From contig NZ_JACHMB010000001.1 in assembly GCF_014204795.1 (NCBI RefSeq), positions 10,676,501 to 10,740,500 on the forward strand: a stretch of DNA of 64,000 nucleotides. The letters run 5' to 3'. Of this stretch, positions 14,595-59,503 are shown one piece after another. The notes under the pieces are model-generated. The model was not told where the DNA came from and did no database searches. It saw nothing but the letters and a program-made list of their open reading frames with translations. The translations under genes and the position numbers were made by a program. Every line of letters begins with the position of its first letter. Position 1 is the stretch's first letter. The DNA is from Nonomuraea jabiensis (GTDB lineage: Bacteria > Actinomycetota > Actinomycetes > Streptosporangiales > Streptosporangiaceae).

Positions 14595-14595
14595 G

Positions 14596-19509: not shown

Positions 19510-19512
19510 GTG

Positions 19513-21126
19513 TCAGCTCACCCATGCGTCGTGGAAGGTGACGGCGCCGTAGGCGTAGTCCCAGGTCAGGCCGTGCACCCGCTTCTGTGAGGAGACGAGG
19601 CTGGGCCTGTTGTAGAGCGGGATGGCGGGCGCCAGTTCGAGCAGCCGGGCCTGCGCCCTGCCGTAGATTCCGGCCCGCTGGGCGGGGTCGGTGCTGGCCC
19701 TGGCCTCTTCGAGCAGCTTGTCGAGGTCGTCGTCGGAGAGCCTGGTGGTGTTCTGGCCGCGCCGCTCGGCGGTGGTGATGTTCTTGGAGGAGTACTGGAT
19801 CCACAGCACGTCGGCGGTGTTCGTGGTCCAGATGCCGACGGACACGTCGAAGTCGCCCTTGGCCGTGCGGTCGGACGAGATCTGCGCCGTGACGTTCTCG
19901 ATTTTGATTTCGATGCCCGCCTTGGCAGCGGCGGCCTGAGCCTGGACCAGGATCTGGGTGTTCTGCGGGTTCACGCCCGTGTCGAGGGCGACGGCGGTCA
20001 GGCGTTTGCCGTCCTTGAGGCGGATGCCGTCCTTGTCCTTCTGCGTCCAGCCCGCCTCGTCCAGCAGCTCGTTCACCCTGGCCGGGTCGTAGGCGATCTG
20101 CCCGCCCTGGGCGTGGTCGGGGGTGGAGGGGGTGACGAAGCCCGTGGCCACACTCCACTGTCCGAAGGAGACGCTGTCGATGATGGCCTTGCGGTCCACG
20201 GCCAGCGTGAGCGCCTGGCGTACCTTCTGGTCGCCGAACGGGGCGCGGCCGGTGTTGAGCCAGACCGAGAACGGGTGTCCCGGCCGGTCGATGGTGGCGA
20301 AGGCGAGGTCCGGGTTGGCTTTGACGTCCTCGACGCTGGCCGGCGGGGTGTTGTCGATCACATTGACCTCGCCGGCGAGCAGCGCGTTGTAGCGGGTCGC
20401 GTCCTCGGCCAGGAAGCGGATCTCCAGACCGTCCAGGTACGCGGGACCCGTGCGGCCGGTCGGCCCCCACGCGTAGCGGGGGTTCTTGCGGTAGGTGATG
20501 CTCTGCCCCTTGGCCCACTTGCCGAAGACGAACGGGCCGGAGCCGATCGGGTGCTCGCAGGTGCTCGCCGGGTCCTCCTTGAGCTGCTTGGGCGAGATCA
20601 TGGCCAGGTACGACTGCGCGAGCACGTTCAGGAACGCCGAGTACGGCGAGCTCAGGCGCACTTCCAACGTGTGCTCGTCCACGACCTTCGCGTCCTTGTA
20701 GGGCGCGATGTACGAGGCGGCCAGCGGCGACTTGGTCGCCGGGTCGCGCATGTGCTCCAGGTTGAGCTTCAGCGCCTCGGCGTTCCAGGCCGACCCGTCG
20801 TGGAACGTCACGCCGTTCCGGAGAGTGAAGGTGTAGGTCAGGCCGTCGTCGGAGATCTTCCAGGCGGAGGCCAGCCAGGGCTTCAGGTTGCCCTCGGCGT
20901 CCTGCCACAGCAGGGAGTCGAAGATCGGGCGGCTCACGACCGTGGTGTTCGTGGTGGACAGCTGGTGGGGGTCGAGGCAGGCGGGCTCGTCGCCGTTCTC
21001 CCCGAGCACGAGCGTGCCTCCGGACTGCGGGCCGGCGTCGCCGACGACCGGTTGCGGCGTGGTGTCAGCGCCGCAACCGGCCAGCAGCAGGGCCGTGACG
21101 AGCAGCATTGTGAAGCGGGTCAGCAT
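19513..21126 (-). CDS. Solute-binding lipoprotein, SBP family 5 (first tandem copy)
   Basis: The protein has 537 residues with a lipoprotein signal (LLLAGCGAD, Cys18). I chose the ATG at 21126, preceded by an AGGA ribosome site, over an upstream ATG that would add 11 residues before the signal. The fold and ligand-site segments match the next gene closely. It is the promoter-proximal gene of a minus-strand transporter and oxygenase operon reaching to 12055. The divergent promoter at 21127-21209 separates it from a second set of sulfur-type oxygenases, so its ligand is probably an organosulfur compound or a sulfonate. Confidence 0.87.
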   Translation of the reverse strand: MLTRFTMLLVTALLLAGCGADTTPQPVVGDAGPQSGGTLVLGENGDEPACLDPHQLSTTNTTVVSRPIFDSLLWQDAEGNLKPWLASAWKISDDGLTYTFTLRNGVTFHDGSAWNAEALKLNLEHMRDPATKSPLAASYIAPYKDAKVVDEHTLEVRLSSPYSAFLNVLAQSYLAMISPKQLKEDPASTCEHPIGSGPFVFGKWAKGQSITYRKNPRYAWGPTGRTGPAYLDGLEIRFLAEDATRYNALLAGEVNVIDNTPPASVEDVKANPDLAFATIDRPGHPFSVWLNTGRAPFGDQKVRQALTLAVDRKAIIDSVSFGQWSVATGFVTPSTPDHAQGGQIAYDPARVNELLDEAGWTQKDKDGIRLKDGKRLTAVALDTGVNPQNTQILVQAQAAAAKAGIEIKIENVTAQISSDRTAKGDFDVSVGIWTTNTADVLWIQYSSKNITTAERRGQNTTRLSDDDLDKLLEEARASTDPAQRAGIYGRAQARLLELAPAIPLYNRPSLVSSQKRVHGLTWDYAYGAVTFHDAWVS

Positions 21127-21209
21127 GGGAGTCCTTAAACAGATATTGCCTACCTGCATTGCAGGGATTACGGTGAACCATAACGTAACACGCAGAACGG
21201 ACGAAACAC
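21127..21209. promoter_or_regulatory. Divergent promoter with CCTGC-ATT-GCAGG palindrome
   Basis: This 83-base gap drives both arms of the sulfur-type locus. A perfect inverted repeat CCTGC (21153-21157) / GCAGG (21161-21165) lies in the middle. Flanking AT-rich stretches (CAATAT on the minus strand, TAACGT at 21181 on the plus strand) could be the two -10 regions, which places the palindrome where a regulator could control both directions. The binding protein is unknown. Confidence 0.5.
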
Positions 21210-22391
21210 ATGACCCACGTGATCGCCGGCGACGCCGCGGCGCTTGCGGCGGCGCGCGAGCTCGCCGCCGGGTTCGCGGCCGAGGCGGCGGCCCGCGACG
21301 CCGAGCGCCGCCTGCCGGAGCCCGAGCTCGACAGGCTGTCGGCCAGCGGTCTGCTCGCCATCACCGTGCCGCGCGCGTACGGCGGTGCCGACGTGAGCGC
21401 GCGCACCCTCGCCGAGGTGTTCCGGCTGCTGGCCGCGGCCGACCCGAACCTCGCGCAGATCCCGCACAGCCACTTCGTCTACGTCAACGTCCTGCGGCAG
21501 CAGGGCACGGACATGCAGCGCAAGTTCTTCTTCGGCGAGGTGCTGGACGGCAGACGCTTCGGCAACGCGCAGTCCGAGGCGGGCACCAAGCACGTCCAGG
21601 ACTACCGGACCTCGCTGACCGCCGCCCCCGCAGGGGGCTTCCTGCTGAACGGCATCAAGCACTACAGCACGGGCGCGCTGTTCGCGCACTGGATCCCGGT
21701 GCTGGCACGGCGGGAGGACCGAACGCTGCACGTGGCGTACGTGCCGCGAGACGCCCCCGGCCTGACCGTCGTGGACGACTGGGACGGCATGGGCCAGCGC
21801 ACCACCGCCAGCGGCACGGTCCGGCTGGAGGACGTGCACGTGCCCGAGGACCGGGTGGTGCCGCACCACCTCACGTTCACCGGTCCGCAGCTCCACGGGG
21901 CGTACGCCCAGCTCCTGCACGCCGCGATCGACGTGGGCATCGCAGGCGGAGCGCTGGAGGAGGCGCTGGAGTTCGTCCGGACCAAGGCCAGGCCGTGGTT
22001 CGAGAGCGGTCAGGACCGCGCGGCCGACGATCCGCTCGTCATCCAGCGAGCCGGCGAGCTTGTCGTCAAGGTACGCGCCGCCGAGGCACTGCTCGACCGG
22101 GCCGCACAGGCCGTGGACGCCGCCCGGGACGACCTGACCGACGAGACGGCCGCCGCCGCCTCCATCGCCGTGGCCGCGGCCAAGGCGTTCGCCGACCCGG
22201 TGGCGGTGGAGCTGGGCGGCGCGATCTTCGAGCTGGGCGGCACCCGGTCCAGCCTCGACGGGCTCAACCTGCACCGCCACTGGCGCAACGCCCGCACCCA
22301 TACCCTGCACGACCCGGCCCGCTGGAAGATCCAGCACATCGGCCGCTACGTGCTCAACGGCCAGCTTCCGCCCCGGCACGGCCTGCTCTAG
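21210..22391 (+). CDS. SfnB-like acyl-CoA-dehydrogenase-fold monooxygenase (second copy)
   Basis: The protein has 393 residues and the same family as the product of 13416-14594: LAQIPHSHFVYVNVLRQQGT near residue 85, FLLNGIKHYSTGALFAHW, VDDWDGMGQRTTASGTVR, and the C-terminal LHRHWRNARTHTLHDPARWK. It is the first gene of the rightward arm, followed after 8 bases by an SsuD-type monooxygenase. SfnB-type enzymes are linked to growth on dimethyl sulfone and other organosulfur sources. It needs reduced flavin, which the SsuE-like reductase at 24717 could supply. Confidence 0.82.
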   Translation: MTHVIAGDAAALAAARELAAGFAAEAAARDAERRLPEPELDRLSASGLLAITVPRAYGGADVSARTLAEVFRLLAAADPNLAQIPHSHFVYVNVLRQQGTDMQRKFFFGEVLDGRRFGNAQSEAGTKHVQDYRTSLTAAPAGGFLLNGIKHYSTGALFAHWIPVLARREDRTLHVAYVPRDAPGLTVVDDWDGMGQRTTASGTVRLEDVHVPEDRVVPHHLTFTGPQLHGAYAQLLHAAIDVGIAGGALEEALEFVRTKARPWFESGQDRAADDPLVIQRAGELVVKVRAAEALLDRAAQAVDAARDDLTDETAAAASIAVAAAKAFADPVAVELGGAIFELGGTRSSLDGLNLHRHWRNARTHTLHDPARWKIQHIGRYVLNGQLPPRHGLL

Positions 22392-37419: not shown

Positions 37420-38823
37420 TCACTCAGAACGGCGGCGGCCTGCCATGAGGAGCGCCGGCAGCAGCGTCAGCACGGTGAACCCGATGGCCCACCAGAAGGT
37501 CCCGGAGTAGGCGTCGGCGGCCCCGCCAGGATCGCCCAGCCGCCACTGCAGCACGACCGCGAGCACGGCGGTGCCGAACGACGCGCCCAGCCGCTGGACG
37601 ATGTTGAACACGGTCGTCGCGCCCGGATAGTCCCGCTCCGGGATCCCGTAGTACGCCGCCGAGACGACGGGGATCACCGCCGCCCCCAGCCCGAGCCCGC
37701 GCACCCCCAGAGCCGGCGCGAGTACCGCCTGGTCCGCCGACGGACCGGCGAGCGCGAACGGGAGCGTGCCGGCGACGGCCAGGACGATCCCCGCCAGCAC
37801 GAGAGGCCGCGGGCCGATCCGGTCCACCAGCAGCCCGACCAGCGGCATCGCGAGCATCGCGCCGATCCCCTGGGGAGCCAGCAGCAGCCCGGCCCGCAGC
37901 GCGTCCGCACCGTGGATCCGCTCGTAGAACAGGGGCAGCACGAACATCGTCCCGAGCAGCGCGGCCTGGGTGCAGAAGACCACGGCCGAGGCCGACGACA
38001 GCGAGCGTACCCGTAACAGGCGCACGTTCACGAGCGACACGGGCCGGCGCGACGCGCGGACGACGAAGGCCAGCAGCAGGACGATCCCCGCTCCGGCGCA
38101 GCCGGACGCCACGACGTCCGGGCCGTCGGGAGCCTCCCCGACCCGCGTCAGGCCGTAGACCAGCAGCGCCATCGCGGGCGCGAGCAGCGCCAGACCGGCC
38201 ACGTCGAGCCGTCGCCCGGCGTCCCGGACGCCCCGCGGCAGCCCGCGGTGGCCGGCCACCAGCGCGACCAGGCAGATCGGCAGGTTGACGAAGAAGATCC
38301 AGCGCCACCCGAGCGTGGCGACGAGCACCCCGCCGAGTGTGGGCCCCGCGATGGGGGCGAGCTGGCCGGGCACCGCCAGGATCGCCATGGCCCGCCCGAG
38401 CCGCCGCTCTCCCGCGACCTGGGCCAGGACCGTCTGCATGACCGGGAAGATCATCCCGCCCGCCGCCCCCTGCGCCACCCTGGCCGCCACCAGGACGGGC
38501 AGCGACCAGGCCACCCCGCACAGCAGCGACCCGGCCAGGAACAGCAGCAGCGACACCGTCCAGACGGGCCGCCCACCATAGCGCTCGATCGCCCAGCCGA
38601 CGAGCGGCACCACCATGGCGAAGGCCAGCAGGTAACCGGTGCTGACGAGCTGGATGGCGGCGACCGGTGCCCCGAAGGCCCGGCCCAGGTCGGGGATCGC
38701 GACGCTGACGATGGTGGTGTCCAGCAGCGGTGCCAGCGCGCCGAGCTGGAGGATCAGCCCGACGCGCAGCAGCCGGCCGTCCACGCGGGGCGGGCCGGCC
38801 TGCGGCGCCGCCTCGTCAGGCAT
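37420..38823 (-). CDS. MFS exporter, DHA2 (EmrB/QacA) type
   Basis: This 467-residue integral membrane protein has about 14 hydrophobic helices. It opens with LAPLLDTTIVSVAIPDLGRAFG, split LAPLLDTTIVS and VAIPDLGRAFG, the DHA2 motif in helix 1. It also has GGRPVWTVSLLLFLAGSLLCG (motif A region, shortened here to GGRPVW) and PTLGGVLVATLGWRWIFFVN (motif C region: GPTLGG). It most likely exports the finished polyketide and may give self-resistance. The start overlaps the luciferase-like oxygenase gene by 8 bases. Confidence 0.87.
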   Translation of the reverse strand: MPDEAAPQAGPPRVDGRLLRVGLILQLGALAPLLDTTIVSVAIPDLGRAFGAPVAAIQLVSTGYLLAFAMVVPLVGWAIERYGGRPVWTVSLLLFLAGSLLCGVAWSLPVLVAARVAQGAAGGMIFPVMQTVLAQVAGERRLGRAMAILAVPGQLAPIAGPTLGGVLVATLGWRWIFFVNLPICLVALVAGHRGLPRGVRDAGRRLDVAGLALLAPAMALLVYGLTRVGEAPDGPDVVASGCAGAGIVLLLAFVVRASRRPVSLVNVRLLRVRSLSSASAVVFCTQAALLGTMFVLPLFYERIHGADALRAGLLLAPQGIGAMLAMPLVGLLVDRIGPRPLVLAGIVLAVAGTLPFALAGPSADQAVLAPALGVRGLGLGAAVIPVVSAAYYGIPERDYPGATTVFNIVQRLGASFGTAVLAVVLQWRLGDPGGAADAYSGTFWWAIGFTVLTLLPALLMAGRRRSE

Positions 38824-45956: not shown

Positions 45957-46808
45957 TCATGCATCGAAGTCCACCTTCTCGGCCAGCTCGCGCCACGGTT
46001 CCCAGCCTGCGACGCGCTCGCGCAGAACGCGCGGGGCGAGCTCGGCCGCACCGCGGCCGAGCAGCAGGCGCAGCGGCGGCGGGTCGGCGTCGAGGACCTC
46101 CAGCAGCGCCTGCCCGAGCCTGGCCGGATCGCCTGGCTGCAGGTGCGCGTACACCCCCGACAGCCCGTGCCGCCGTTTGGCCAGCACGTCGTCATAGGCG
46201 GCCAGCGGCACGGCCCTGACCATGCTGCCCGCGCTCCACTCGGTGCGGAACTCGCCCGGCTCCACGATCGTCACCCGGATGCCGAAGCCGGCCACCTCCT
46301 GGGCCAGCGTCTCGCTCAGCCCTTCCAGCGCCCACTTGCTCGCGCAGTAGAGGCCGAGGTTGGGGTAGGTGGTGACGCCGGCGATGCTCGACATCTGGAA
46401 GATGTGGCCCCCGCCCCGGCGGCGCAGCACCGGCAGCACCGCCTGGACGCACCACAGCGCGCCGAAGAAGTTGACCTCCAGCTCCTCGCGCGCCTGGGTT
46501 TCGGAGACCTCCTCCACGGCCCCCGCCAGACCGTGACCGGCGTTGTTGACCAGGACGTCGATGCCGCCCGCCAGCTCCACCGCCCGCTCGACGGCGGCGA
46601 AGACGGCCTGCCGGTCGGTGACGTCGAGCGGCAGGGCGACGGCGCGGTCGCCGTGCGCGGCGACCAGGTCGTTGAGCGCGGCCGGCTTGCGCGCGGTGGC
46701 GATCACGGTGTCGCCCGCCGCCAGGGCCGCCTCGGCGACCGCTCGGCCGAGGCCGCGTGAGGCACCCGTGACGAGCCAGCGGCGCGGCCGTGAAGTGGTG
46801 TCGGTCAT
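45957..46808 (-). CDS. SDR family oxidoreductase
   Basis: This 283-residue classical SDR has VTGASRGLGRAVAEAAL, VLVNNAGHGLAGAVEE, MSSIAGVTTYP and the catalytic YCASKWALEGLSE. EPGEFRTEWS follows, as in the family that includes many secondary-metabolite and general reductases. It probably shares a transcript with the glycosyltransferase gene 63 bases downstream. Its promoter contains two palindromic operators, shared with the divergent FMN reductase. It may reduce a keto group on the polyketide or the sugar; the substrate is not evident. Confidence 0.83.
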   Translation of the reverse strand: MTDTTSRPRRWLVTGASRGLGRAVAEAALAAGDTVIATARKPAALNDLVAAHGDRAVALPLDVTDRQAVFAAVERAVELAGGIDVLVNNAGHGLAGAVEEVSETQAREELEVNFFGALWCVQAVLPVLRRRGGGHIFQMSSIAGVTTYPNLGLYCASKWALEGLSETLAQEVAGFGIRVTIVEPGEFRTEWSAGSMVRAVPLAAYDDVLAKRRHGLSGVYAHLQPGDPARLGQALLEVLDADPPPLRLLLGRGAAELAPRVLRERVAGWEPWRELAEKVDFDA

Positions 46809-46867: not shown

Positions 46868-46903
46868 TGGAGCGATTCGCTCCGAACGGAGCGCACCGCT
46901 CCA
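46868..46903. promoter_or_regulatory. Double palindromic operator (GGAGCG-N3-CGCTCC twice)
   Basis: Two 15-bp palindromes lie side by side: GGAGCG-ATT-CGCTCC (46869-46883) and GGAGCG-CAC-CGCTCC (46888-46902). The block lies between the SDR and FMN reductase genes. A stretch from GAACGGAG (46884) to TTTA closely matches 56507-56530 upstream of the TetR gene (about 19 of 24 positions by eye), so the TetR protein encoded at 55827 is the likely binder. The right palindrome abuts a likely -10 (TTTAGT), where binding would block transcription. Confidence 0.65.
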
Positions 46904-46915
46904 TTTAGTGTTACG

Positions 46916-47545
46916 ATGCCCTCCAATCCGCCGCCCAGAAGGGAATCCCCATTGTCCGGCGCTCCTCTGAAACTGGCCGTGATCATCGGCAGCACCCGCG
47001 AGGGCCGCTTCGGCTCCATCGTGGGAAGCTGGCTCGTCGACCGGGTCCGCGACCACGGCGGCTTCGAGCTCGACGTCATCGACCTGGCCGAGGTGTCCCT
47101 GCCGATCGTCCAGCAGAAACACCCGGTCAGCACCGGTGAGTACCCCGAGCGGGAAGTACGCGACTTCGCCGCCCGCATCGGCGCCGCCGACGCCTTCGTC
47201 GTGGTCACGCCGGAGTACAACCACGGTTATCCCGCCTCGCTGAAGCTCGCCATCGACTCCGTCCACCCCGAGTGGTGGGCCAAGCCCGTGGCCTTCGTCT
47301 CCTACGGCGGCTACGCGGGCGGCCTGCGCGCCGTCGAACAGCTCCGGCTCGTCTTCGCCGAGCTGCACGCCACCACGATCCGCGAGACGGTCAGCTTCCA
47401 CATGGCCTACACCCAGTTCGACGAGACCGGCAGGCCGCACGACGCCGAGAGCGTCAACGCCGCCGCCAAGCTCCTGCTCGACCAGCTCGGCTGGTGGGGC
47501 GAGGCGCTGCGGGCGGCGCGGGCGGCCCGCCCCTACGTCTGCTGA
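46916..47545 (+). CDS. NAD(P)H-dependent FMN reductase
   Basis: This 209-residue flavodoxin-like protein has IIGSTREGRFGSIVGSWL (phosphate loop), VTPEYNHGYPASLKLAIDSV, split VTPEYNHGYPA and SLKLAIDSV (FMN contacts), and SYGGYAGGLRAVEQLR. It could feed FMNH2 to the luciferase-like and ActVA-ORF5-like oxygenases of the polyketide operon, which otherwise lacks a reductase. The ATG lies about 10 bases after a possible -10 (TTTAGT) and there is no ribosome site, so the mRNA may be leaderless. A later TTG start is possible. Confidence 0.85.
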   Translation: MPSNPPPRRESPLSGAPLKLAVIIGSTREGRFGSIVGSWLVDRVRDHGGFELDVIDLAEVSLPIVQQKHPVSTGEYPEREVRDFAARIGAADAFVVVTPEYNHGYPASLKLAIDSVHPEWWAKPVAFVSYGGYAGGLRAVEQLRLVFAELHATTIRETVSFHMAYTQFDETGRPHDAESVNAAAKLLLDQLGWWGEALRAARAARPYVC

Positions 47546-48515: not shown

Positions 48516-49472
48516 GTGAGCCGGTATCTCCTTCAGCGCCTGCTCTCCCTGGCCCTGGTCCTGCTCGTCGCGGTGTCGCTCTCGTTCGCACTCGTGCACC
48601 TCCTCCCCGGAGACCCCGTGGAGCTGATGCTCGACGGGAATCTCGGCGGGTTGCAGGCCACGCCGGAGCAGGAGGCCGCGCTGCGTCACGAGCTCGGGCT
48701 GGACCGGCCGATCGCGGAGCAGTACCTGGCCTTCCTCGGCAACGCGCTGACCGGCGACTTCGGCAGGAGCATCGCCTCCGGCCAGCCTGCGGTCCTGGCC
48801 ATCGCCGAGGCGGCGCCCGCCAGCCTCGCTCTGCTGGCGCTCGCGCTCCCGCTGTCGCTGCTGGCCGGCGTGGCCGTCGCGGTGGCCGCCACGCTGACGC
48901 GCCGGCGCGTCCTGAGCGGCGCGCTCGCGGGGCTGGCCGTGCTGGGCGTGTCGATGCCGGGCTATTGGCTGGGCATCCTGCTGATCGAGGGGCTGTCGTT
49001 CCGGCTGCCGCTCTTCCCCGCCACCGGCAACGAGGGCCTGCGCAGCCTGGTGCTGCCGGCCATCACCCTGGCGGTACCCAGCGCGGGGATGATCGCCCAG
49101 GTGCTGCGCGGCAGCCTGCGCCACGCGCTCGCCGAGCCGTACGTCACCACGGCCCTCGCCAAGGGCGCGAGCCCGGTCCGGGTGAACCTGCGCCACGCCC
49201 TTCGTAACGCGGCCCTGCCCGCGGTCACGGTCGTCGGCATGCTGACCGGCGGGCTGATCGGGGGCGCGACCGTGGCGGAGATCGTGTTCGGGCGGGCCGG
49301 GCTGGGCCGGTTGCTGGTGACGGCCATCGCCCACCGGGACATGACGGTCGTCCAGGCGATGGTCGTCTTCGTCGGCGCCGCCTACATCGTGCTCAACCTG
49401 CTCATCGACCTGCTCTACTCGTGGCTCGACCCGCGGGTGACCGCGGGCCGCCCGGCCGGGAGGACCACCTGA
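48516..49472 (+). CDS. ABC transporter permease, DppB type (second transporter)
   Basis: This 318-residue protein has LLQRLLSLALVLLVAVSLSF as first helix (shortened to SLALVLLVAVSLSF), FALVHLLPGDPVELML, GDFGRSI and the loop EPYVTTALAKGAS, with LLIDLLYSWLDPRV at the end. The start GTG overlaps the stop of a ten-codon reading frame (ATG at 48487), which could couple translation. It is first in an operon with a DppC permease, a double ATPase and a GST-like protein, and no binding-protein gene lies directly beside it. The lipoprotein encoded at 56754 may be its partner. Confidence 0.87.
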   Translation: MSRYLLQRLLSLALVLLVAVSLSFALVHLLPGDPVELMLDGNLGGLQATPEQEAALRHELGLDRPIAEQYLAFLGNALTGDFGRSIASGQPAVLAIAEAAPASLALLALALPLSLLAGVAVAVAATLTRRRVLSGALAGLAVLGVSMPGYWLGILLIEGLSFRLPLFPATGNEGLRSLVLPAITLAVPSAGMIAQVLRGSLRHALAEPYVTTALAKGASPVRVNLRHALRNAALPAVTVVGMLTGGLIGGATVAEIVFGRAGLGRLLVTAIAHRDMTVVQAMVVFVGAAYIVLNLLIDLLYSWLDPRVTAGRPAGRTT

Positions 49473-50283
49473 TGCCGTCGTTCATCCGGCGGCCGGCGAC
49501 GGTTCTGTCCGCGCTGGCCGCCGTCGCCATCGGGTTCTGCGCGCTGTTCCCCTCCGTCGTGGCGCCCTACGGGCCGCACGAGGGCGACCCCGTGCGGGCC
49601 CTCCTGCCCCCGGGCGGCGCTCACCCGTTCGGGACCGACCAGCTCGGCCGCGACCTGTTCAGCGAGATCGTCTGGGGCGCCCGGCCCTCGCTGCAGGTGA
49701 GCCTGCTGGCCACGGCACTGGCGCTGGTCGCCGGCGCGCTGCTCGGGCTGGTGGCCGGTTACGTGGGCGGGCTGCTCGACGGGCTCGTCATGCGGGCGGT
49801 GGACGTGCTGATGGCCGTTCCCACCATGCTGATGATCCTCGTCGTCATCGCCGTGCTCGGCAGCGGCACCACCAACATCGCCATCGCGGTGGCGCTGGCC
49901 ACGGTGCCCACCTTCGCCCGGCTCATGCGGGCCGAGGTGCTGCGCGTCCGCACCCGGCTCTACGTCAAGGCCGCCATCGCCGCGGGGGTGCGCACGCCGG
50001 TCGTCCTGCTCCGCCACGTCGTGCCCAACGCCGCCGCGCCGGTCCTCGCCTACGCGGTGCTGGCCGTCGGCGGATCGCTGCTGGCCACCTCCGGGCTCGG
50101 CTTCCTCGGTTTCGGCGCCCCGCCGCCGAACGCCGAATGGGGAGCCCTGGCCGCCGCGGGCCGCGACTTCGTGGGCACGTGCTGGTGGCTGACGACGTTC
50201 CCCGGGCTCATGGTGGTGCTCACCGTGCTGGCCGCGACGGGGCTCAGCCAGACCCGTCCCGAGGGCACCGCGGCGGTGCCCAG

Positions 50284-50287
<4 letters not shown>
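49472..50287 (+). CDS. ABC transporter permease, DppC type (second transporter)
   Basis: This 271-residue protein has the family features HPFGTDQLGRDLFSEIVWGAR (shortened to FGTDQLGRDLFSEIV), LYVKAAIAAGVRTPVVLLRH (EAA loop, split LYVKAAIAAG and VRTPVVLLRH) and GLGFLGFGAPPPNAEWG. Its ATG overlaps the previous stop as TGATG and its stop overlaps the ATPase GTG. It forms the pore with the DppB-type protein. Confidence 0.87.
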
Positions 50288-51887
<1,600 letters not shown>

Positions 51888-51891
<4 letters not shown>

Positions 51892-52754
51892 CCTCCGTCC
51901 CAGCGTTCGCCAGCCCCGTGGACCTCGACGTCCACGGCAGGTACGACCCGTTCCGCGGGCTGCCCGACCGCAGCGCGCCCCCCGCGTACGTCTTCGACGG
52001 CCGGATCGGCGACGACGCTCACCCGGCCGAGCCCGGCAGGTACCACCTCTACGTGGCGCTGTCGTGCCCGGTGGCCCAGCTCGCCAGGATCGCCCGGCTG
52101 CTGCTCGGCCTGGAGAAGGTGATCGGCGTCTCGGTCGTGGACGACGAGCGGGACGGCCGCGGCTGGGCCTTCAGAGAGCGTCGGGGCCCCGACGAGGTCA
52201 ACGGCTTCACCCTGCTCAGCCAGGCGTACGAGGCCACCCAGCCCGGTTACTCCGGGCACATCTCGGTGCCGGTGCTGTGGGACCGGCACGAGGGCCGCAT
52301 CCTGAGCAACGAGTACTTCCACATCCTGCGCGACCTCGGCACCCGGTTCGGCGAGCACGCGACGAGCGAGGTCCAGCTGTACCCGCCGGAGCTGGCCGCG
52401 CGCATCGACGCGATCAACACCCTCGTCCACGAGGAGATCTCGCTGGCCCTGTCGGCCACCGACAAGCGCCACGAGGATGTGCGTCCGCAGGTGATCGCGG
52501 CGCTGGACCAGTTCGAGGCACGCCTGTCGACGCACCGCTACCTGCTCGGCGCCGCGATCACCGAGGCGGATCTGCGCTTCTACACGACCTTGGTCCGCTT
52601 CGACCAGGGCGCGAACGCGCTGTCGGTCATCACCGGGCGGCCGCTCCCGTCGTGGCCGCGGCTGCTCGGTTACCTCCAGGACCTGTACGCGCTGCCCGCC
52701 TTCCGCGACACCACGCTCGTCGTGCCCGAGTATCTGGCGGCCGGGCAGCCGTAG
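51888..52754 (+). CDS. Xi-class glutathione S-transferase-like protein
   Basis: This 288-residue protein has an N-terminal thioredoxin fold with the cysteine motif LSCPVAQLARIARLL (Cys60; canonical glutathionyl-hydroquinone reductases have CPWAHR). The C-terminal helical domain has INTLVHEEISLAL and RYLLGAAITEADLRFYTTLVRFD, split RYLLGAAITEAD and LRFYTTLVRFD. Such enzymes remove thiol adducts from quinones. Actinomycetes use mycothiol, so the thiol is uncertain. It is translationally coupled to a transporter operon; either thiol-adduct cleavage for sulfur use or protection from a quinone polyketide is possible. Confidence 0.8.
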
Positions 52755-52760
52755 CCGCCA

Positions 52761-52781
52761 CGGGCCGGATCATCCGGCCCG
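52761..52781. terminator. Perfect 10-bp hairpin terminator between convergent genes
   Basis: CGGGCCGGAT (52761-52770) and ATCCGGCCCG (52772-52781) form a near-perfect stem, followed on the plus strand by CTGTTCTTTC. It lies between the stops of the GST-like gene and the second aromatase/cyclase gene and can end transcription from both sides. Confidence 0.75.
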
Positions 52782-52789
52782 CTGTTCTT

Positions 52790-53635
52790 TCAAGGCCGAG
52801 GAACCCCCGTGCCCGCGCGTTCCTCGGCGTAGGCGCGGGCGCGTTCGGCCACCACGACGCTGTTCCCGCCCAGTGCCTTGCGGATCCACTCCCGCGCGCC
52901 GGCCACGGTCGTGCCCTCGCCGAGCACGGCCGCGACACCGGAGGGCCGGATCACGACCGTGTGCGCCGCGGTCACCGCCACGGACCCGCCGGACTCCTCG
53001 ATCGTCCAGCGCAGCACGTGCAGCGTGGCCAGCGGCGGCAGCAACCGGTGCTTCTCCACGATGGCCCGGCCGGGGAAGCCGACCCGCACCGCCTCGGTGG
53101 TGCGGACCGGGCCGCCGGGACCCGCGTTGTCGATCTCGATGAACCGGCCGTGCGGGCCGGCGGGCCGGGCGGAGGCCGCCGCGACGTGCGGGACGACCCG
53201 CGGCCACTCCTCCACCCGGTGCAGGAAGTCGTAGACGTCGCTCGCCGCGCCCGCGATCCGTACGGTGTCGGCGAACTCCAGGTGCACCTCCGGCTGCCCG
53301 GTCTCCTCCTCGGCCGCGATCCGGACGGGTTCGAGATCGGCCTCGCCGCGCAGCCTGCTCTCGCCCTCGCCCAGCGGCTCGGCCGTCCAGGTCCCGCCGA
53401 TCGGCGGCCCGAGGCCGTCGCTCTGGAACCTCACGGAGCCGGTGCCGCCGTCGTACCCGACGACGGCCTCGGCGATCTCGTCGTCGCGCAGCCACCACAC
53501 GCGGGCACTCCCGCCGTCGATCGGCTCGGCGTGCACCACTGACGGGAAGACTCGCGGCCAGGCCGCCACGTCGGTCAGCAACCGCAGGACGGTCGTGGCG
53601 GGGGCTCGTACCGTCGTGCTCGGAACGTCTGACAT
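52790..53635 (-). CDS. Didomain aromatase/cyclase (second, divergent copy)
   Basis: This 281-residue protein has two SRPBCC domains (about 5-130 and 135-270), shorter than the 311-318 residues of its two paralogues. Recognisable parts are DVAAWPRVFPSVVHAEP, GPPIGGTWTAEPL, SDVYDFLHRVEEWPRVVPHV and RKALGGNSVVVAERARAYAE. The first domain has lost several residues conserved in the others (for example the acidic DYR segment). It may handle a later ring closure or be partly degenerate. It is the second gene of a two-gene unit with the DUF6081-like gene, 10 bases downstream of it. Confidence 0.82.
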   Translation of the reverse strand: MSDVPSTTVRAPATTVLRLLTDVAAWPRVFPSVVHAEPIDGGSARVWWLRDDEIAEAVVGYDGGTGSVRFQSDGLGPPIGGTWTAEPLGEGESRLRGEADLEPVRIAAEEETGQPEVHLEFADTVRIAGAASDVYDFLHRVEEWPRVVPHVAAASARPAGPHGRFIEIDNAGPGGPVRTTEAVRVGFPGRAIVEKHRLLPPLATLHVLRWTIEESGGSVAVTAAHTVVIRPSGVAAVLGEGTTVAGAREWIRKALGGNSVVVAERARAYAEERAGTGVPRP

Positions 53636-53645
53636 CGCCGCCCCC

Positions 53646-54671
53646 TCAGTGGCCGTGCCGGAGCGTGACGGACACGTGATCGACCTGGATCGAGATGCCC
53701 TGCCCCCACAGCCGGTTGCTCTCCAGGCTCTCGTCGTCGTAGAACTCCGCGGGCGTCGGCGCCCCCACGCGCGGCGCGTAGTAGACGTCGGGCAGGCTCG
53801 ACAGGCGCACCAGCCCCCGCCCGTCGCGGCCGGCGCCGTCGAGGAAGGTGACGGTGCTGAAGCCGCAGTAGAGCTGGCGCGGCTGGGCGAGCTGCGGCGT
53901 GCCGCCGTGGTCGGTGAGCAGGTATTTGCGGTCGAAGGCCGGCTCGCCGATGCGGTCGAGCCTCAGCACCCGCCGCCCGTCCACCACCCAGCTCACCACA
54001 CCCGCGTCCTTGTCGAACTCGATGGCCAGGCTGTTGGTCTGTGACGGCACCCGCGGCGTGACGGGGATGGCGTAGAAGAAGGAGGCGTGGTTCTGGCCGG
54101 GCTTGGGCTGCCGGGCGTAGGCGGCGTAGATGAGCTGGTTGGTCACGAAGTACGTGAACACCGAGCCGGTCTCGGGATCGGCCGACTGCACGGTCGCCGA
54201 GGCCAGCCGTAAATCGCGGTCCGGGTCGCCGGCCAGGTTGCCGAAGGGGTGGCCGGCGGTGCCGAAGGTGCGCACCGCCAGCGAGACCTCGCACCTGAAG
54301 ACCGAGCCGGCCGGCACGTCGAACCCGCGGAACCCGTTGGAGGAGGTGTGGTTGACCGTGGCCCCCCACTTGACCTCGTCGCTGGCGCCGAGCCCGCCGT
54401 CGTCCTCCTGCGGGGTGGTGTAGACGAAGGCGGGCTCGCCGGTGGCCGGGTTGGTGCCGGACGCACGTACGTTCAGCCCGTCGGCCGAAGTGGTGGGGAT
54501 CCCGTCGCGGGCCACCACCCAGGTGTTCACCGTGTCGAAACCTGCGCGGAAGTCGTCATGGAAGAGACGCTCGACGCGTCCCGTGACCGTCGCGGAAGCC
54601 GGAGCGGCCATGACCGCGACCAGAGCCGCCGAGGCGAGGACGCTCCCCATCGCGCGGTACAGACTCCTCAT
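53646..54671 (-). CDS. Exported DUF6081-like protein
   Basis: This 341-residue protein has a signal peptide ending at about APASA (residue 27). The mature part is rich in beta strands (FHDDFRAGFDTVNTW, FRCEVSLAVRTFGTAG, VVSWVVDGRRVLRLDRIG), resembling the jelly-roll lectin/glycosidase-like fold of DUF6081 proteins. No catalytic residues can be named. It is first in a transcript with an aromatase/cyclase, behind three 11-bp-spaced TCGA heptamers, so it belongs to the polyketide regulon. An extracellular tailoring, binding or cyclase-like role is possible. Confidence 0.7.
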   Translation of the reverse strand: MRSLYRAMGSVLASAALVAVMAAPASATVTGRVERLFHDDFRAGFDTVNTWVVARDGIPTTSADGLNVRASGTNPATGEPAFVYTTPQEDDGGLGASDEVKWGATVNHTSSNGFRGFDVPAGSVFRCEVSLAVRTFGTAGHPFGNLAGDPDRDLRLASATVQSADPETGSVFTYFVTNQLIYAAYARQPKPGQNHASFFYAIPVTPRVPSQTNSLAIEFDKDAGVVSWVVDGRRVLRLDRIGEPAFDRKYLLTDHGGTPQLAQPRQLYCGFSTVTFLDGAGRDGRGLVRLSSLPDVYYAPRVGAPTPAEFYDDESLESNRLWGQGISIQVDHVSVTLRHGH

Positions 54672-54713
54672 TCATTCTCCCTGTTCTGAGCAGCCGAAGA
54701 TCGGCCTTGCAGC

Positions 54714-54762
54714 GGAGATTGAACGGGGAGCCGGTCGAGGACGCGTCGAGCGCGACTCGACC
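54714..54762 (-). promoter_or_regulatory. SARP-type promoter of the DUF6081 / aromatase-cyclase unit
   Basis: TCGA-centred heptamers start every 11 bp (plus-strand positions 54735, 54746 and 54757). On the minus strand they read TCGAGTC, TCGACGC and TCGACCG, followed by an 8-bp spacer and TTCAAT, a good -10-like hexamer. This spacing (heptads 11 bp apart, the last 8 bp before the -10) is the textbook arrangement for SARP activators such as ActII-ORF4. The start codon lies about 50 bp further on. Confidence 0.7.
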
Positions 54763-54791
54763 TCGCTCGTCGACGGCCCGTATAACCTCGC

Positions 54792-55706
54792 TCAGCCCAC
54801 CGTCAGCACGACCTTGCCGCGCCCGTGCCCGAGATCGACCCGCTCGTGGGCCTGGACGGCGTCCGTCAGCGGGAACGCGGTGGTCGGCAGGATCAGCTCC
54901 TTGCGCGCGGCCAGGCCGGCCAGGTGAGCGAGGGTCTCCACGGAGCGGGCGCCCGACAGCCGCCTGATCCCATGTTTCGCGATGGCCTCCTCGGCGTCGA
55001 CGAGCGTGCCGATCCGCCGGCGATCCTGGACCAGCTCGACCGAGACGTCGGTGGCCTCGCCGCCGATCGCGTCGAGCGCCGCGTCCACCCCGTCGGGCGC
55101 GGCCTCCCGGATCCGGTCGGCCAGGCCGGGGCCGTAGGTGACGGGCGTGACGCCCAGCGAGCGCAGATAGTCGTGGTTGGCCTCGCCGGCCGTGCCGATC
55201 ACCTTCGCGCCGCGCAGGACGGCGAGCTGGGCGGCGACCGTGCCGACCCCGCCCGCGCAGGCGTGGATGAGGAACGTCTCTCCGGCCGCCACGCCCAGCT
55301 CTTCGACGAAGCCGTACGCGCCCTGCCCCACCACGGACAGCGCGCCGGCGATCTCCCACGACAGATCCGCCGGCTTGACGGCGAGCTGGGTCGCGGGTAC
55401 GACGATCACCTCCGCGTACGCGACGAGGAGCGCCCAGCCCAGCACCTCGTCACCCGCCGCGAACCCGGTCACGCCCTCGCCGACCGCGTCGACCACTCCG
55501 GCGAACTCGTTGCCGAGCCGCTGCGGGAACGCCGCGGGGAAGAACTCGCGCAGTTCCCCGGCACGGAGCTTGGCGTCGAACGGCGCCACGCCTGCGGCAC
55601 GGATTCTGACCCGGACCTCGCCGGCGCCGGGCTCGGGCTCGGCGATGTCGATGGGGTGGAGCACCGTGGGGGCGCCGTACTCGGAGAACGCGATCGCAAC
55701 AGGCAC
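54792..55706 (-). CDS. Quinone oxidoreductase-like MDR protein
   Basis: This 304-residue zinc-independent medium-chain reductase has VRIRAAGVAPFDAKLRAGEL, LGNEFAGVVDAVGEGVTGF, split LGNEFAGVVDA and VGEGVTGF, FLIHACAGGVGTVAAQLA (cofactor loop) and DAALDAIGGEATD. Such enzymes reduce quinones or enones with NADPH. The GTG start follows a strong AAGGAGG site. It lies downstream of the TetR gene on the same strand and may share its control. A role in quinone detoxification or polyketide tailoring is possible. Confidence 0.83.
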   Translation of the reverse strand: MPVAIAFSEYGAPTVLHPIDIAEPEPGAGEVRVRIRAAGVAPFDAKLRAGELREFFPAAFPQRLGNEFAGVVDAVGEGVTGFAAGDEVLGWALLVAYAEVIVVPATQLAVKPADLSWEIAGALSVVGQGAYGFVEELGVAAGETFLIHACAGGVGTVAAQLAVLRGAKVIGTAGEANHDYLRSLGVTPVTYGPGLADRIREAAPDGVDAALDAIGGEATDVSVELVQDRRRIGTLVDAEEAIAKHGIRRLSGARSVETLAHLAGLAARKELILPTTAFPLTDAVQAHERVDLGHGRGKVVLTVG

Positions 55707-55735
55707 GTGAGACCTCCTTGAGGACATGCCGCGGG

Positions 55736-55755
55736 CCGCCCGGTGCGCCGGGCGG
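55736..55755. terminator. Perfect 8-bp hairpin between TetR and MDR genes
   Basis: CCGCCCGG (55736-55743) and CCGGGCGG (55748-55755) form a stem with a TGCG loop just upstream of the MDR gene ribosome site. It may attenuate readthrough from the tetR-type gene, or simply structure the leader. Confidence 0.4.
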
Positions 55756-55826
55756 TGCGGGGATGCGGAACCACGGGCCGGCGCGGCGCTGCGCGGCCCG
55801 GTCGTGCGCGGGGCGGAGGGAGCGCC

Positions 55827-56489
55827 TCAGCCCGGGTCGGTGTCCGGCTCCTTGGAGCGGCTCTTCATCGCCTTCTCGATCTCCTGCCAGTCGGTGGCCG
55901 GCGCGCCCAGCCGGTGGGACCCCTCCGGGCGCAGGCCGTCCAGCACGATGCCGAGGAAACGGCGGCTGAGCGCGGCCGCCGTCTCGCCCTTCTCCGCGCG
56001 CCGCTCACGCAACGCGTGGAGCAGGGTGATGATGTCATCGGCGTTGACGTCGGGACGCACGACCCCGGCCTCCTGCGCGCGGTCCACGAGCGTCTGGATG
56101 GCCTCACGGGCCCGCTTGCTGGCGGCCAGCACGTCCTCGGTGATCTCGAAGGTGCCGGCGAGCCTGGGCGAGCCGTCCACGCCGGCCTCCACGCAGGCGG
56201 TGACGAAACCCTCGAACCCCTCCCAGGCGTCATCGACGACGAGACCGCGCTCGGCCTCCTGCCAGGTCTGCTCCATGTGCGCCAGCGACAGGGCGCGCAT
56301 CAGGTCTTCCTTGCTCGGATAGCGCCGGTACAGAGTGCCCATGCCGACGCCCGCGCGCTCCGCGATGACCGACACCGGAGCCTCGGGCCCCAGCTCGACG
56401 AAGACGGCCCGGGCGGCGGCGAGAATGCGCTGGTCATTGCGGCTGGCGTCGGACCGGCGCGGCCCTCGTCCAGCGGTGCTCCCTCTCAC
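55827..56489 (-). CDS. TetR/AcrR family regulator
   Basis: This 220-residue protein has an N-terminal helix-turn-helix (ARAVFVELGPEAPVSVIAERAGVGMGTLYRRYPSKEDL, split AERAGVGMGTLYRRYPSKED for the recognition part). The C-terminal domain is helical. It is divergent from the leader-peptide and binding-protein transcript. A GGAG-N7-CTCC palindrome (56511-56525) lies at its own promoter and matches the double operator at 46868-46903, so it probably represses itself and the SDR/FMN reductase pair. The ligand may be the polyketide or an intermediate. Confidence 0.88.
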   Translation of the reverse strand: MRGSTAGRGPRRSDASRNDQRILAAARAVFVELGPEAPVSVIAERAGVGMGTLYRRYPSKEDLMRALSLAHMEQTWQEAERGLVVDDAWEGFEGFVTACVEAGVDGSPRLAGTFEITEDVLAASKRAREAIQTLVDRAQEAGVVRPDVNADDIITLLHALRERRAEKGETAAALSRRFLGIVLDGLRPEGSHRLGAPATDWQEIEKAMKSRSKEPDTDPG

Positions 56490-56508
56490 ATCCCGAGACT
56501 AACATAGA

Positions 56509-56527
56509 ACGGAGCCCTCCACTCCGT
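56509..56527. promoter_or_regulatory. Palindromic operator ACGGAG-N7-CTCCGT
   Basis: The inverted repeat ACGGAG (56509-56514) / CTCCGT (56522-56527) lies between the TetR gene and the leader peptide. It aligns with the palindromes at 46868-46903, mainly in GAACGGAGC and CTCC. It is the probable self-control site of the TetR protein and may also influence the sulfur transcript on the other side. Confidence 0.65.
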
Positions 56528-56568
56528 GTACGGTGACCGGTATCGCCGCTCGCGGAAGAGAGGTCGTC

Positions 56569-56643
56569 ATGCCTTTCCCGTTGCGTCTGGTCTCCCGCCG
56601 CCACGTGGACTACTGCCGGATCGCCGGCCAAGCCTGTCACTGA
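56569..56643 (+). CDS. Cysteine-type leader peptide (24 residues)
   Basis: This short frame has a GGAAGAGAGG ribosome site. The peptide contains LVSRRHVDYCR in its middle and ends with a second cysteine just before the stop (AGQACH). Actinobacterial leader peptides of this kind, with an RRHVD or RLHVD core followed by one or two cysteines near the end, precede sulfur-assimilation genes and are proposed to act by cysteine-dependent attenuation. The gene 110 bases downstream encodes a solute-binding lipoprotein. The frame is too short for usual gene finders. Confidence 0.75.
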   Translation: MPFPLRLVSRRHVDYCRIAGQACH

Positions 56644-56753
56644 CCCCGGCCCCTCCCCCAGCACGCCACCCGATCCCGGCGGCGACCGCCACCGGGCCGC
56701 TCAAGCGCGCCTTGAGTTCGCACGTTTCACGTTCTCGACAGGAGCTCCGACAA
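56644..56753 (+). promoter_or_regulatory. Attenuator-like region after the leader peptide
   Basis: Two hairpins are visible: a nested one with CCCGG at about 56675-56679 pairing with CCGGG at about 56692-56696, and CTCAAG (56700-56705) / CTTGAG (56711-56716) with a CGCGC loop. These are placed where ribosome stalling at the leader cysteines could change RNA folding before the binding-protein start. The last part contains the GGAG ribosome site (56741-56744). Confidence 0.5.
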
Positions 56754-58367
56754 GTGACAGTCGTGTCACCGGCAGGCCGCGGCCTCTGCGCGGTCCTCGC
56801 CTTCGCCCTCACCCTCGCCGCGGCCGGCTGCGGCGGCTCGGCGGAAGGAGTGGGCAGCGCCGCCACCACCCCCCGCCCCGGCGGAACCCTCAAGATCGCC
56901 GTGTCCGAGGACCCGGTCTGTCTGGACCCGCCGCAGGCGAACTTCTCCTCAGCCGTCAACGTCATGCGCCAGCTCTTCGACACGCTCACCGACCAGGATC
57001 CCCGCACCGGCGAGATCAAGCCGTGGCTGGCCACCTCCTGGGAGATCGGCCCCAAGGCCACCTCCTTCACGTTCCACCTGCGTAAGGGAGTGACGTTCAG
57101 CGACGGCGCACCCGTGAACGCGGCCGCGGTCAAGGCGAACCTCGACGAGGTGGTCAAGCTGGGCGCGAAGTCGCTGTTCGCCTCCACCTACCTGTTCGGC
57201 TACAAGGGCACGACCGTGGTGGACGAGCACACCGCCCGGGTCGAGTTCAAAAGCCCCAACGCCCAGTTCCTCCAGGCGACCGCGACCACCTCGCTGGGGC
57301 TCAGCTCCCCGGCGTCGCTGGCCAAGCCGGCCGCCGACAGGTGCCGGGCGCCGATCGGCTCCGGCGCCTTCGTGCTGGACAAGCTGCAGACCAACCACAG
57401 CGTCACGGTGAAACGGCGAGCCGGGTACGCCTGGCCCTCGTCGCTGGCCGCCCACCAGGGTGAGGCGTACCTGGAGGCGGTGGAGTTCCGTATCGTGCCC
57501 GAGCAGGGGGTGCGTACCGGGGTGCTGACCTCCGGCCAGGTGCAGGCGATCACCGACGTGCAGCCGGTCACCGAGCGGCAGTTCCGGCAGGGCGGATTCC
57601 AGGTGCTGAGCCGCTACAACCCGGGCCTTCCGTACGCCCTCTACCCCAACACGTTCCGGCCGCTGCTCGGCGACGAGGCGGTGCGCAAGGCCATCAGCAA
57701 GGGCATCGACCGCAAGCAGGTGGTGGACGTGGTCCTGACGCCCACCTACCGCCCGGCGACCAGCATCCTGACCAGCTCCACCCCGGCCTACGTCGACCTC
57801 GGCAAGGACCTGGCTCACGACCCCGCCGGGGCCGCGGCGCTGCTGGACGGGGCAGGCTGGAAGCCCGGCCCCGACGGGATCCGGCAGAAGGACGGCCGGA
57901 AGCTGAGCCTGAACGTGTACTTCACCACCGGCTTCAACCCGAACACCACGATCCTCGAACTGCTGAGCCAGCAGCTCCGCAAGATCGGCGTGGATCTTCA
58001 GCTACGGCCGGTGGACGCGGCCGGGTTCGGCGAGGCCCAGGCGAAGAAGCAGATCGACTTCCGCTGGGGCAACAGCACCAGGGCCGACCCCGACATCCTG
58101 CGCACGGTCTTCTCCACGAAGTTCTCCGCCGCCGCCTACCTGCCGCCCACCGACCTCGACGACCGGCTCGACCAGGAGGTCAAGACGCTCGACCAGGCCG
58201 GGAGGGCCGAGGTGGTGGGCGAGATCCAGCGGACCGTCCTCGACCGCGGCTACGCCATCCCCGTCTTCGAGCTGGCCCAGGTCGTGGGGGTGTCGAAGGC
58301 GGTGCGAGGGCTGACCCTGGACCCGTCCGTACGGCTGCGCCTGCACGACGCCTGGCTGGCCTCGTGA
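56754..58367 (+). CDS. Solute-binding lipoprotein, SBP family 5, behind a cysteine leader
   Basis: This 537-residue protein has a lipoprotein signal ([11 protein letters not shown], Cys26), then [19 protein letters not shown] and the family 5 fold ([19 protein letters not shown], split [12 protein letters not shown] and KANLDEV). The GTG start has a GGAG site. No permease is adjacent, but the orphan permease/ATPase operon at 48516-51891 lacks a binding protein, so the two probably make one transporter. The leader peptide suggests expression when cysteine is scarce. It overlaps the oxygenase gene that follows. Confidence 0.87.
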
Positions 58368-59503
58368 GCGGCGGGGGCGCGGTGCCGCTGTCCGTCCTGG
58401 ACCTGTCGCCCATCACCTCGGGCGGCACGGCGGCCGGCGCCCTGCGCGAGACCCTGGACCTGGCCCGCCACGCGGAACGGCTCGGCTACTCCCGCTACTG
58501 GATCGCCGAGCACCACCTGAGCCCCAGCGTGGCCGCCGCCGCCCCGGCCGTGCTGATCGCGCTGGTGGTCTCGGCGACCGACCGCCTGCGGGTCGGCTCG
58601 GGCGCGGCGCTGATCGCCAACTCCACGCCGTTGCTGCTCGCCGAGCAGTTCGGCACGATCGCGCAACTCCATCCCGGCCGCGTGGACCTGGGGCTGGGGC
58701 GTTCCGGCTCCAGGCGGTTCGCGGAGGTCGCGGCCGAGTCCGGCAAGGCCCCGCCGGGCGGGGTCCTGGCGACCGCTCCCGGCACGGTGGTGAACGGCGT
58801 CGTGATCCCCGCCAGGACCAGCGTCTCCTTCGACACCGAGCTGTTCCGGGTCAAGGCCCGGCTGCTCGGCCAGGTGGACGGCGCCGACGACGACTACTCC
58901 GGTCAGGTGCGGGACGTGCTGAGCTTCCTGCGCGGCGACTACCGCACCGACCAGGGGGTCGCCCTGCGGGCGCTGCCCGCGGAGGACGCCGACCTGCAGG
59001 TGTGGATCCTCGGGTCGAGCGCGGGGGCCAGCGCCGCGGCCGCCGGGGAGCACGGCCTGCCCTACGCGGCCAACTACCACCTGGGCGGGGCGACCGTGCT
59101 GGAGTCGGTGGCGGCCTACCGGGCGGCGTTCCGGCCGTCGGAGGGGCTGGCGAAGCCGTACGTGATGGTGTCGGCGGACGTGATCGTGGCCGAGAACGAC
59201 GAGAGCGCCGCCCGGCTGGCGGCGCCGACCGCGCTGTGGGTGCTGAACATGCGACGGGGGCTGGCGACGGGGCCCTTCCCCAGCACGGCCGAGGCGGAGG
59301 CGCACGAGTGGACCGACGAGGAGCGGGCCTACGTGGCCGACCGGATCAGCACCCAGATCGCCGGCTCGCCCGCCACGGTCGTGTCGCGGCTGCGCCGCCT
59401 GGCGGACGTCACGGGGGCCGACGAGCTGCTCGTCACCACGATCACCGCACGTCACGCCGATCGCGTGCGCTCCTACGAGCTGCTGGCCAAGGCGTGGAAA
59501 TGA
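58364..59503 (+). CDS. Luciferase-like flavin monooxygenase of sulfur module 2
   Basis: This 379-residue LLM-class protein has [36 protein letters not shown] (the conserved AEHH motif), [22 protein letters not shown], split [12 protein letters not shown] and [10 protein letters not shown], and [11 protein letters not shown]. The GTG start overlaps the lipoprotein stop, so both respond to the leader. It is more like MsnO8/YvbT-type luciferases than SsuD. Probably it cleaves or oxidises the imported organosulfur substrate; the FMN reductase could be any of the two encoded in the window. Confidence 0.83.

Follow-up and report, generated by a model that had tools for sequence, protein, structure and literature searches.

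In the stretch of Nonomuraea jabiensis DNA analysed here (64,000 nt, hereafter the window), two GGAGCG-N3-CGCTCC palindromes lie in the divergent intergenic region between an SDR oxidoreductase gene and an FMN-reductase gene, and they are very likely operators, predicted to be sites for a TetR-type repressor. In the reading we prefer, to which we give a probability of roughly 70%, they form a TetR operator pair through which the TetR of the polyketide cluster would repress the FMN reductase, the SDR and, weakly, its own operon of tetR and a quinone-oxidoreductase-like dehydrogenase (QOR), until a quinone of the pathway releases it. A small TetR regulon with an operator shared between the regulator and the SDR/FMN-reductase pair had been proposed in the initial annotation, and the idea is well supported by the footprint of the operator at homologue loci, by the matrix rank of the sites and, most strongly, by a sister cluster in Micromonospora sp. 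KC213. Conservation of the operator, conservation of the promoter and the association of both with particular genes were established by computation.

The SDR gene (PRK08263 subfamily) occupies 45957-46808 on the minus strand and the gene for the NADPH-dependent FMN reductase (PF03358) 46952-47545 on the plus strand. Both palindromes, expected by the initial annotation within 46868-46903, are present there: the left one, GGAGCGATTCGCTCC, at 46869-46883 and the right one, GGAGCGCACCGCTCC, at 46888-46902, with a spacing of 19 bp from centre to centre. A sigma-70 consensus scan called no promoter at 46909-46917, and the -10 of the FMN reductase was therefore deduced from conservation: the putative extended -10, TGTTACGAT (46909-46917, plus strand), has its counterpart in GTGTTAC, which is equally spaced from the operator in the QOR promoter of KC213. 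The right palindrome, formerly placed at the -10 itself, ends 9 bp upstream of the probable hexamer TACGAT (46912-46917). For the SDR gene, no obvious promoter was seen by eye. As for translation, the start codon TTG at 46952 is preceded at 7 nt by the Shine–Dalgarno sequence AGAAGGGA (46937-46944, plus strand) and aligns with the ATG of the KC213 orthologue, which has a GGAG of its own, and an in-frame ATG at 46916 falls within the -10. Thus, the suggestion that the reductase mRNA is leaderless fails.

The regulator of the cluster is encoded at 55827-56489 on the minus strand. Its product combines an N-terminal TetR_N helix-turn-helix domain (46.8 bits, cut-off 24), with the helix GVGMGTLYRRYPSKEDL, and an SbtR-like C-terminal domain, TetR_C_43 (PF21597; 59 bits, cut-off 27). 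The QOR gene (54792-55727, minus strand) lies 99 bp downstream on the same strand; a neighbouring QOR-type gene is a feature shared with the operator-bearing TetR clade. Upstream of tetR, the palindrome ACGGAG-N7-CTCCGT at 56509-56527 forms a degenerate operator, ACGGAGCCCTCCACTCCGT. It had been described as part of a nearly identical 24-base stretch common to 46884-46907 and 56507-56530; the two stretches are related, and the near-identity does not hold, since 19 of 24 positions agree (counted by eye). Nor does the tetR site have the GGAGCG-N3-CGCTCC form, as it reads GGAGCC-CTC-CACTCC. In the form CGGAGTGGAGGGCTCCG it stands two mismatches from CGGAGCG-N3-CGCTCCG and likewise two from GAACGGA-N4-TCCGTTC. 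A putative -10 of tetR, TATGTT (56501-56506, minus strand), would lie 4 bp from the GGAG/CTCC core, and TAAGGT is placed likewise relative to the TTCC arm at the KC213 tetR gene. A cysteine within ACVEAGVDGSPRLAG is common to the window TetR (55827-56489) and its KC213 orthologue (L189:2995-3639), and could possibly act as a redox or electrophile sensor.

We read the clusters of the window and of KC213 as type II-like polyketide clusters, because they hold a FabF-like synthase, a FabG-like ketoreductase (KR) and a SARP regulator, together with cyclase-like proteins named by eye. Sulfur or peptide salvage genes may be interleaved with the polyketide cluster at 12055-22391 and 48516-59503, where an NtaA/DmoA-type monooxygenase, an acyl-CoA-dehydrogenase-like gene, family-5 solute-binding proteins, a GST and a luciferase-like monooxygenase occur together with ABC permease and ATPase genes (the latter two named by eye). 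A 24-residue ORF, MPFPLRLVSRRHVDYCRIAGQACH (56569-56643, plus strand), separates a family-5 solute-binding protein gene from the tetR operator, and we take it to resemble the leader peptides that precede actinobacterial sulfur-uptake genes. At the other end of the window, an M-box magnesium riboswitch (RF00380) was found at 269-448 on the plus strand (70.5 bits, gathering threshold 44).

Homologues of the TetR were sought in 98 genomes, and 29 best-match loci outside the window's genome, all in its genus, were examined; these 29 TetR loci, and likewise 29 loci each for the FMN reductase and the SDR, are the best matches of longer match lists. A site with at most two mismatches from CGGAGCG-N3-CGCTCCG lies between -300 and +30 at 24 of the 29 TetR loci, two sites being present at 21 of these 24, and such a site occurs in 1.7% of random 330-bp windows drawn from the 400-kb neighbourhood of the window. 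Among the best-match homologue loci of the enzymes the corresponding counts were 0/29 for the SDR and 0/29 for the FMN reductase, hence the operators are no general feature of those enzymes. Moreover, a QOR-like gene was detected by tblastn (27-38% identity) within the 1.5-kb flanks of 21 of the 29 TetR loci, and within those flanks at none of the five TetR loci that have no operator.

Of 59 genomes, 23 yielded the exact tandem pattern and none the reversed control; the 23 include the genome of the window and all belong to its genus. With six repeats read from the opposite strand set aside, the 30 tandem loci correspond to 24 distinct sites, of which 17 lie by a TetR homologue, three by an FMN reductase and four by neither, meaning that none of the four reference proteins is adjacent. 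In genomes G000 (that of the window), G020 and G010, an FMN-reductase gene with tandem sites before it has a related TetR at a distance of about 2 kb. Random scatter of the motif, named in the initial annotation as the contrary outcome, does describe the bare and loose matches; the annotated tandem sites, on the other hand, stand at TetR or FMN-reductase promoters in 20 of 24 cases.

To rank individual sites we used a weight matrix built from 44 palindromes near TetR matches of other genomes, the window's genome being excluded. Its training sites (scores 14.3 to 38.5) were chosen by GGAG-N7-CTCC and at least 5/7 arm matches, so the matrix is biased to that core, and five TetR loci without sites (L024, L028, L029, L038 and L039) contributed nothing to it. 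In the 400 kb around the window, the left palindrome ranked first (24.4 bits) and the right one second (15.7 bits), followed by two unrelated places outside the window (12.6 and 10.0 bits) and then by the tetR site (6.5 bits), which is fifth of the 400 kb and third inside the window. The top scores of 20 shuffled 400-kb sets ranged from 6.8 to 17.9; the left site was reached in none of them and the right site exceeded in two, and the tetR site scores below every shuffled top, so that it stands out by its promoter position only. The MFS gene of the window (37420-38823) has no nearby site among the eight best matrix scores of the window. Past the window, CGGAGCCGAACGCTCCG at G000 10740694-10740710 (window +194) is weak by the matrix (0.5 bits); the gene that it precedes, at about 210 bp from the likely start, encodes a second quinone oxidoreductase.

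When one genome per species was scanned for relatives of the TetR, six were confirmed, of which one is close. This protein, from Micromonospora sp. KC213 (NZ_SMKF01000015.1), has 65% identity to the window TetR and the identical helix, GVGMGTLYRRYPSKEDLM, and likewise matches the TetR_C_43 family. The contig carries the one sister cluster that was found, resembling that of the window in its ketoacyl synthase (73% identity), KR (72%), biotin-carboxylase-like protein (66%), QOR (56%), glycosyltransferase (54%) and MFS protein (47%). An FMN-reductase orthologue (65%) follows tetR there by about 64 bp on one strand. GAGCG-N3-CGCTC occurs three times in the 62.9-kb contig, with one copy at the promoter of tetR and two in the divergent MFS/QOR promoter, and three control palindromes of similar composition occur 1, 1 and 0 times. 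The 13-mer GAGCGGAACGCTC is identical at the KC213 tetR and QOR genes, and with 11.2 and 9.7 bits the MFS/QOR sites have the two best matrix scores of the contig, compared with 0.2 bits for the site at tetR. Among the 19 next-best TetR homologues in the family of KC213, the core operator was seen in 1/19 and an FMN reductase in the flanks in 0/19.

Conservation also extends from the operator into the promoter. The FMN-reductase promoter of the window and the KC213 QOR promoter agree without gaps at 25 of 30 positions, from the operator through GTGTTAC, which 0/1000 shuffles equalled. Over six promoter pairs, with p values uncorrected for the number of tests, this match was accompanied by likeness of the window tetR site to the KC213 QOR promoter (19/23; 3/1000 shuffles as good), of the two KC213 promoters QOR and tetR to each other (p 0.002), of the SDR/FMN and tetR intergenic regions of the window (best local alignment 16/19; 9/1000 shuffles as good, p 0.009) and of the window FMN/SDR region to the KC213 tetR promoter (p 0.022), and the window and KC213 tetR promoters were alike no more than by chance (p 0.31).

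Which TetR would read these sites is a separate matter. In the tree, the TetRs of the window and KC213 form a clade of their own (99/99), outside the GSLYRRYR-type clade that trained the matrix and also separate from the GISALYRRY-type TetRs. GISALYRRY/GMSALYRRY-type TetRs of the same family have GAACGGA-N4-TCCGTTC-like sites, a second operator class whose loci include L195, L199, L203, L206-L208, L213, L241, L246, L248 and L252; 21 of 29 rows of the GISALYRRY-type clade carry a site with at most one mismatch. Label counts on this tree call for caution, as its labels A and B overlap. The KC213 tetR site is closer to this second form (two mismatches) than to CGGAGCG-N3-CGCTCCG (three). The helix changes that set the window TetR apart also occur in TetRs with a retained operator: the change from S to T (GTLYRRYGSK) in L197 and L245, which have exact CGGAGCG-N3-CGCTCCG sites, that from R to P (GSLYRRYPSK) in L236 and L238, with sites at one mismatch, and both together (GTLYRRYPSK) in L237, with a site at two mismatches. 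Hence, recognition of the same core by the cluster TetR is plausible. The consensus of the paralogous TetRs, however, is matched more closely by the left site than by the cluster's own tetR site, so that a paralogue, alone or beside the cluster TetR, has to be considered as the binding protein.

The genome of the window holds at least three further operator-bearing TetRs of the same type (66511, 9361018 and 9506540). Of the six exact 17-mers in the whole genome, one precedes TetR 66511, one TetR 9506540, one the FMN reductase at 9504350 and three lie elsewhere, inside called ORFs and away from TetR or FMN-reductase promoters; gene calls around the exact 17-mers, as in the KC213 contig, are rough, and the called MFS gene overruns the TetR/MFS sites. 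A module near 9.5 Mb groups an FMN reductase and a divergent MFS-like gene with a TetR-QOR pair; it has tandem sites both at TetR/MFS and at the FMN reductase, and the order FMN reductase-MFS-TetR with both tandem pairs is repeated in G020 and G010. Sixteen genome stretches were chosen by hand, some of them for a nearby FMN-reductase match, and this gene is present in five (G020, G010, G006, G026 and G048), being preceded by sites in two of the five; in G006, G026 and G048 it has no called site of its own, and an operator-bearing TetR is found 1.4-2.5 kb away. QOR calls in these stretches rest on the window QOR as the reference. In another of the 16, G150, an SDR 70% identical to that of the window lies 370 bp after an operator-bearing TetR, and the SDR homologues among the matches listed reach at most 57% identity.

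Two alternatives to exclusive control by the cluster TetR were considered. The cluster TetR and at least one paralogue could share the site pair, in which case induction would come from general quinone stress as well as from the pathway product; this is compatible with our preferred reading, and the left site indeed fits the paralogue consensus while the right site and the promoter fit the cluster type of KC213. We nevertheless hold it to be somewhat unlikely, as several helix positions around GSLYRRYRTK/GTLYRRYPSK differ and cross-binding is a prediction. Less probable again is that the palindromes are operators of a chromosomal TetR_C_43 paralogue such as 9506540, which would make the SDR/FMN pair part of a general quinone-stress regulon. 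The left site owes its 24.4 bits to a matrix made from the promoters of that clade, its 15-mer is identical to a site before the 9506540 TetR, and the module there has tandem sites at both its FMN reductase and TetR/MFS; yet in KC213 it is the orthologous cluster TetR that is followed by the FMN reductase, with the operator core shared with the QOR promoter, and the 9506540 paralogue is 1.2 Mb distant.

A broader scheme may be put forward tentatively, and we consider it doubtful as it stands: aromatic polyketide clusters may have captured, together with its operators, a mobile actinobacterial quinone-stress module, and the SDR/FMN promoter would be read by both kinds of TetR. Such a module would comprise a TetR_C_43 repressor, QOR, FMN reductase, an MFS pump and sometimes an SDR, with GAGCG-N3-CGCTC operators that are usually tandem. 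In the captured form product quinones would induce it, whereas the chromosomal version would serve as a general quinone-stress circuit.

That the palindromes arose by chance in GC-rich DNA is very improbable. The bare form GGAG-N7-CTCC was found three times in the window against an expectation of 2.81, so this count by itself is no proof. The longer GAGCG-N3-CGCTC also occurs three times in the window, namely as the two SDR/FMN operators and at 48914 in coding sequence, where three control palindromes of similar composition gave 1, 1 and 0. Genome-wide, matches to the 17-mer within two mismatches are not enriched and are in fact rarer than those of its reversed control (363 versus 614); weak matches thus mean little, and strong or tandem sites alone were used. 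ACGGAG-N7-CTCCGT at one mismatch numbers 41 against 14 for its control. What speaks against chance is the first and second matrix rank in 400 kb and the cross-genus promoter match of 25/30. Finally, although a consensus scan marks 46888-46902 as terminator-like, we reject the hardly credible reading of the right palindrome as an intrinsic terminator, a stem followed by ATTTAGTGTT, because it lies upstream of both divergent genes and not downstream of a transcribed gene, its run of T is interrupted, and upstream of TetR genes this palindrome is found again in tandem pairs.

For the circuit under the cluster TetR, we infer binding, repression, the ligand and the identity of the regulator, and the following steps are proposed. 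The SbtR-like TetR_C_43 protein would bind each palindrome as a dimeric repressor. If TGTTACGAT is the extended -10, the right palindrome would span about -36 to -22 in the promoter of the FMN reductase, where a dimer would cover the -35 and spacer and exclude polymerase. A second dimer on the left palindrome may strengthen repression and block the SDR side, so that FMN reductase and SDR would both be kept off. Through the degenerate copy of the operator, the cluster TetR may control its own tetR-QOR operon weakly. The polyketide pathway would then supply the ligand, a quinone-type product or intermediate suggested by the enzyme types and the setting, which would bind the TetR and release it from the operators, and the derepressed flavin reductase, SDR and quinone oxidoreductase might serve redox tailoring or self-protection.

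These results propose a specific operator, open to test, for a large TetR group whose targets are undescribed in the literature searched. They also provide a handle for derepression of the polyketide cluster, through one TetR gene or two palindromes, and should the cluster product prove to be the ligand, a product reporter could be made from the TetR and the SDR/FMN promoter. In the open-licence literature, a full-text search for both operator halves with "TetR family" returned no paper, a looser string search gave no title about TetR regulators among the matches listed, and in searches of open-licence titles and the beginnings of abstracts on TetR with quinone or FMN reductase, polyketide, SbtR and ActR, the circuit was not among the matches listed.

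TetR repressors with palindromic operators are familiar in antibiotic clusters, and the SDR/FMN circuit is a switch of this familiar kind, of which the present member is newly documented. Quinone- or electrophile-sensing TetRs of the NemR type control a flavin-dependent reductase, and the predicted circuit resembles them in placing a TetR over flavin or quinone reductases, a likeness of logic only. ActR of S. coelicolor is a TetR with palindromic operators within an aromatic polyketide (actinorhodin) cluster, and it senses a product of the pathway. A possible parallel is that the KC213 sites lie in a divergent MFS/QOR promoter, whereas those of the window are not at an efflux gene. In PMC3511530, the ActR operator sites contain CCACCGTT, letters different from GGAGCG-N3-CGCTCC, and the operators given there for ActR and six other Streptomyces TetRs differ from that of the window. 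For SCO7222, a TetR of S. coelicolor, the same paper describes a single intergenic region with multiple short inverted repeats that are perfect (TGGAACG-N-CGTTCCA); the occurrence of more than one repeat between two genes is shared with the window, and the arms and spacing differ. The nearest solved chain to the cluster TetR, and its best PDB sequence match, is MAB_4384 of Mycobacterium abscessus (PDB 5OVY, E 4.1e-29), a likeness of protein sequence. According to PMC5895659, the DNA target of MAB_4384 is a palindromic region of 27 bp, and an efflux operon is repressed. It controls MmpS5/MmpL5 efflux, whereas the predicted targets of the window TetR are reductases in a polyketide cluster.
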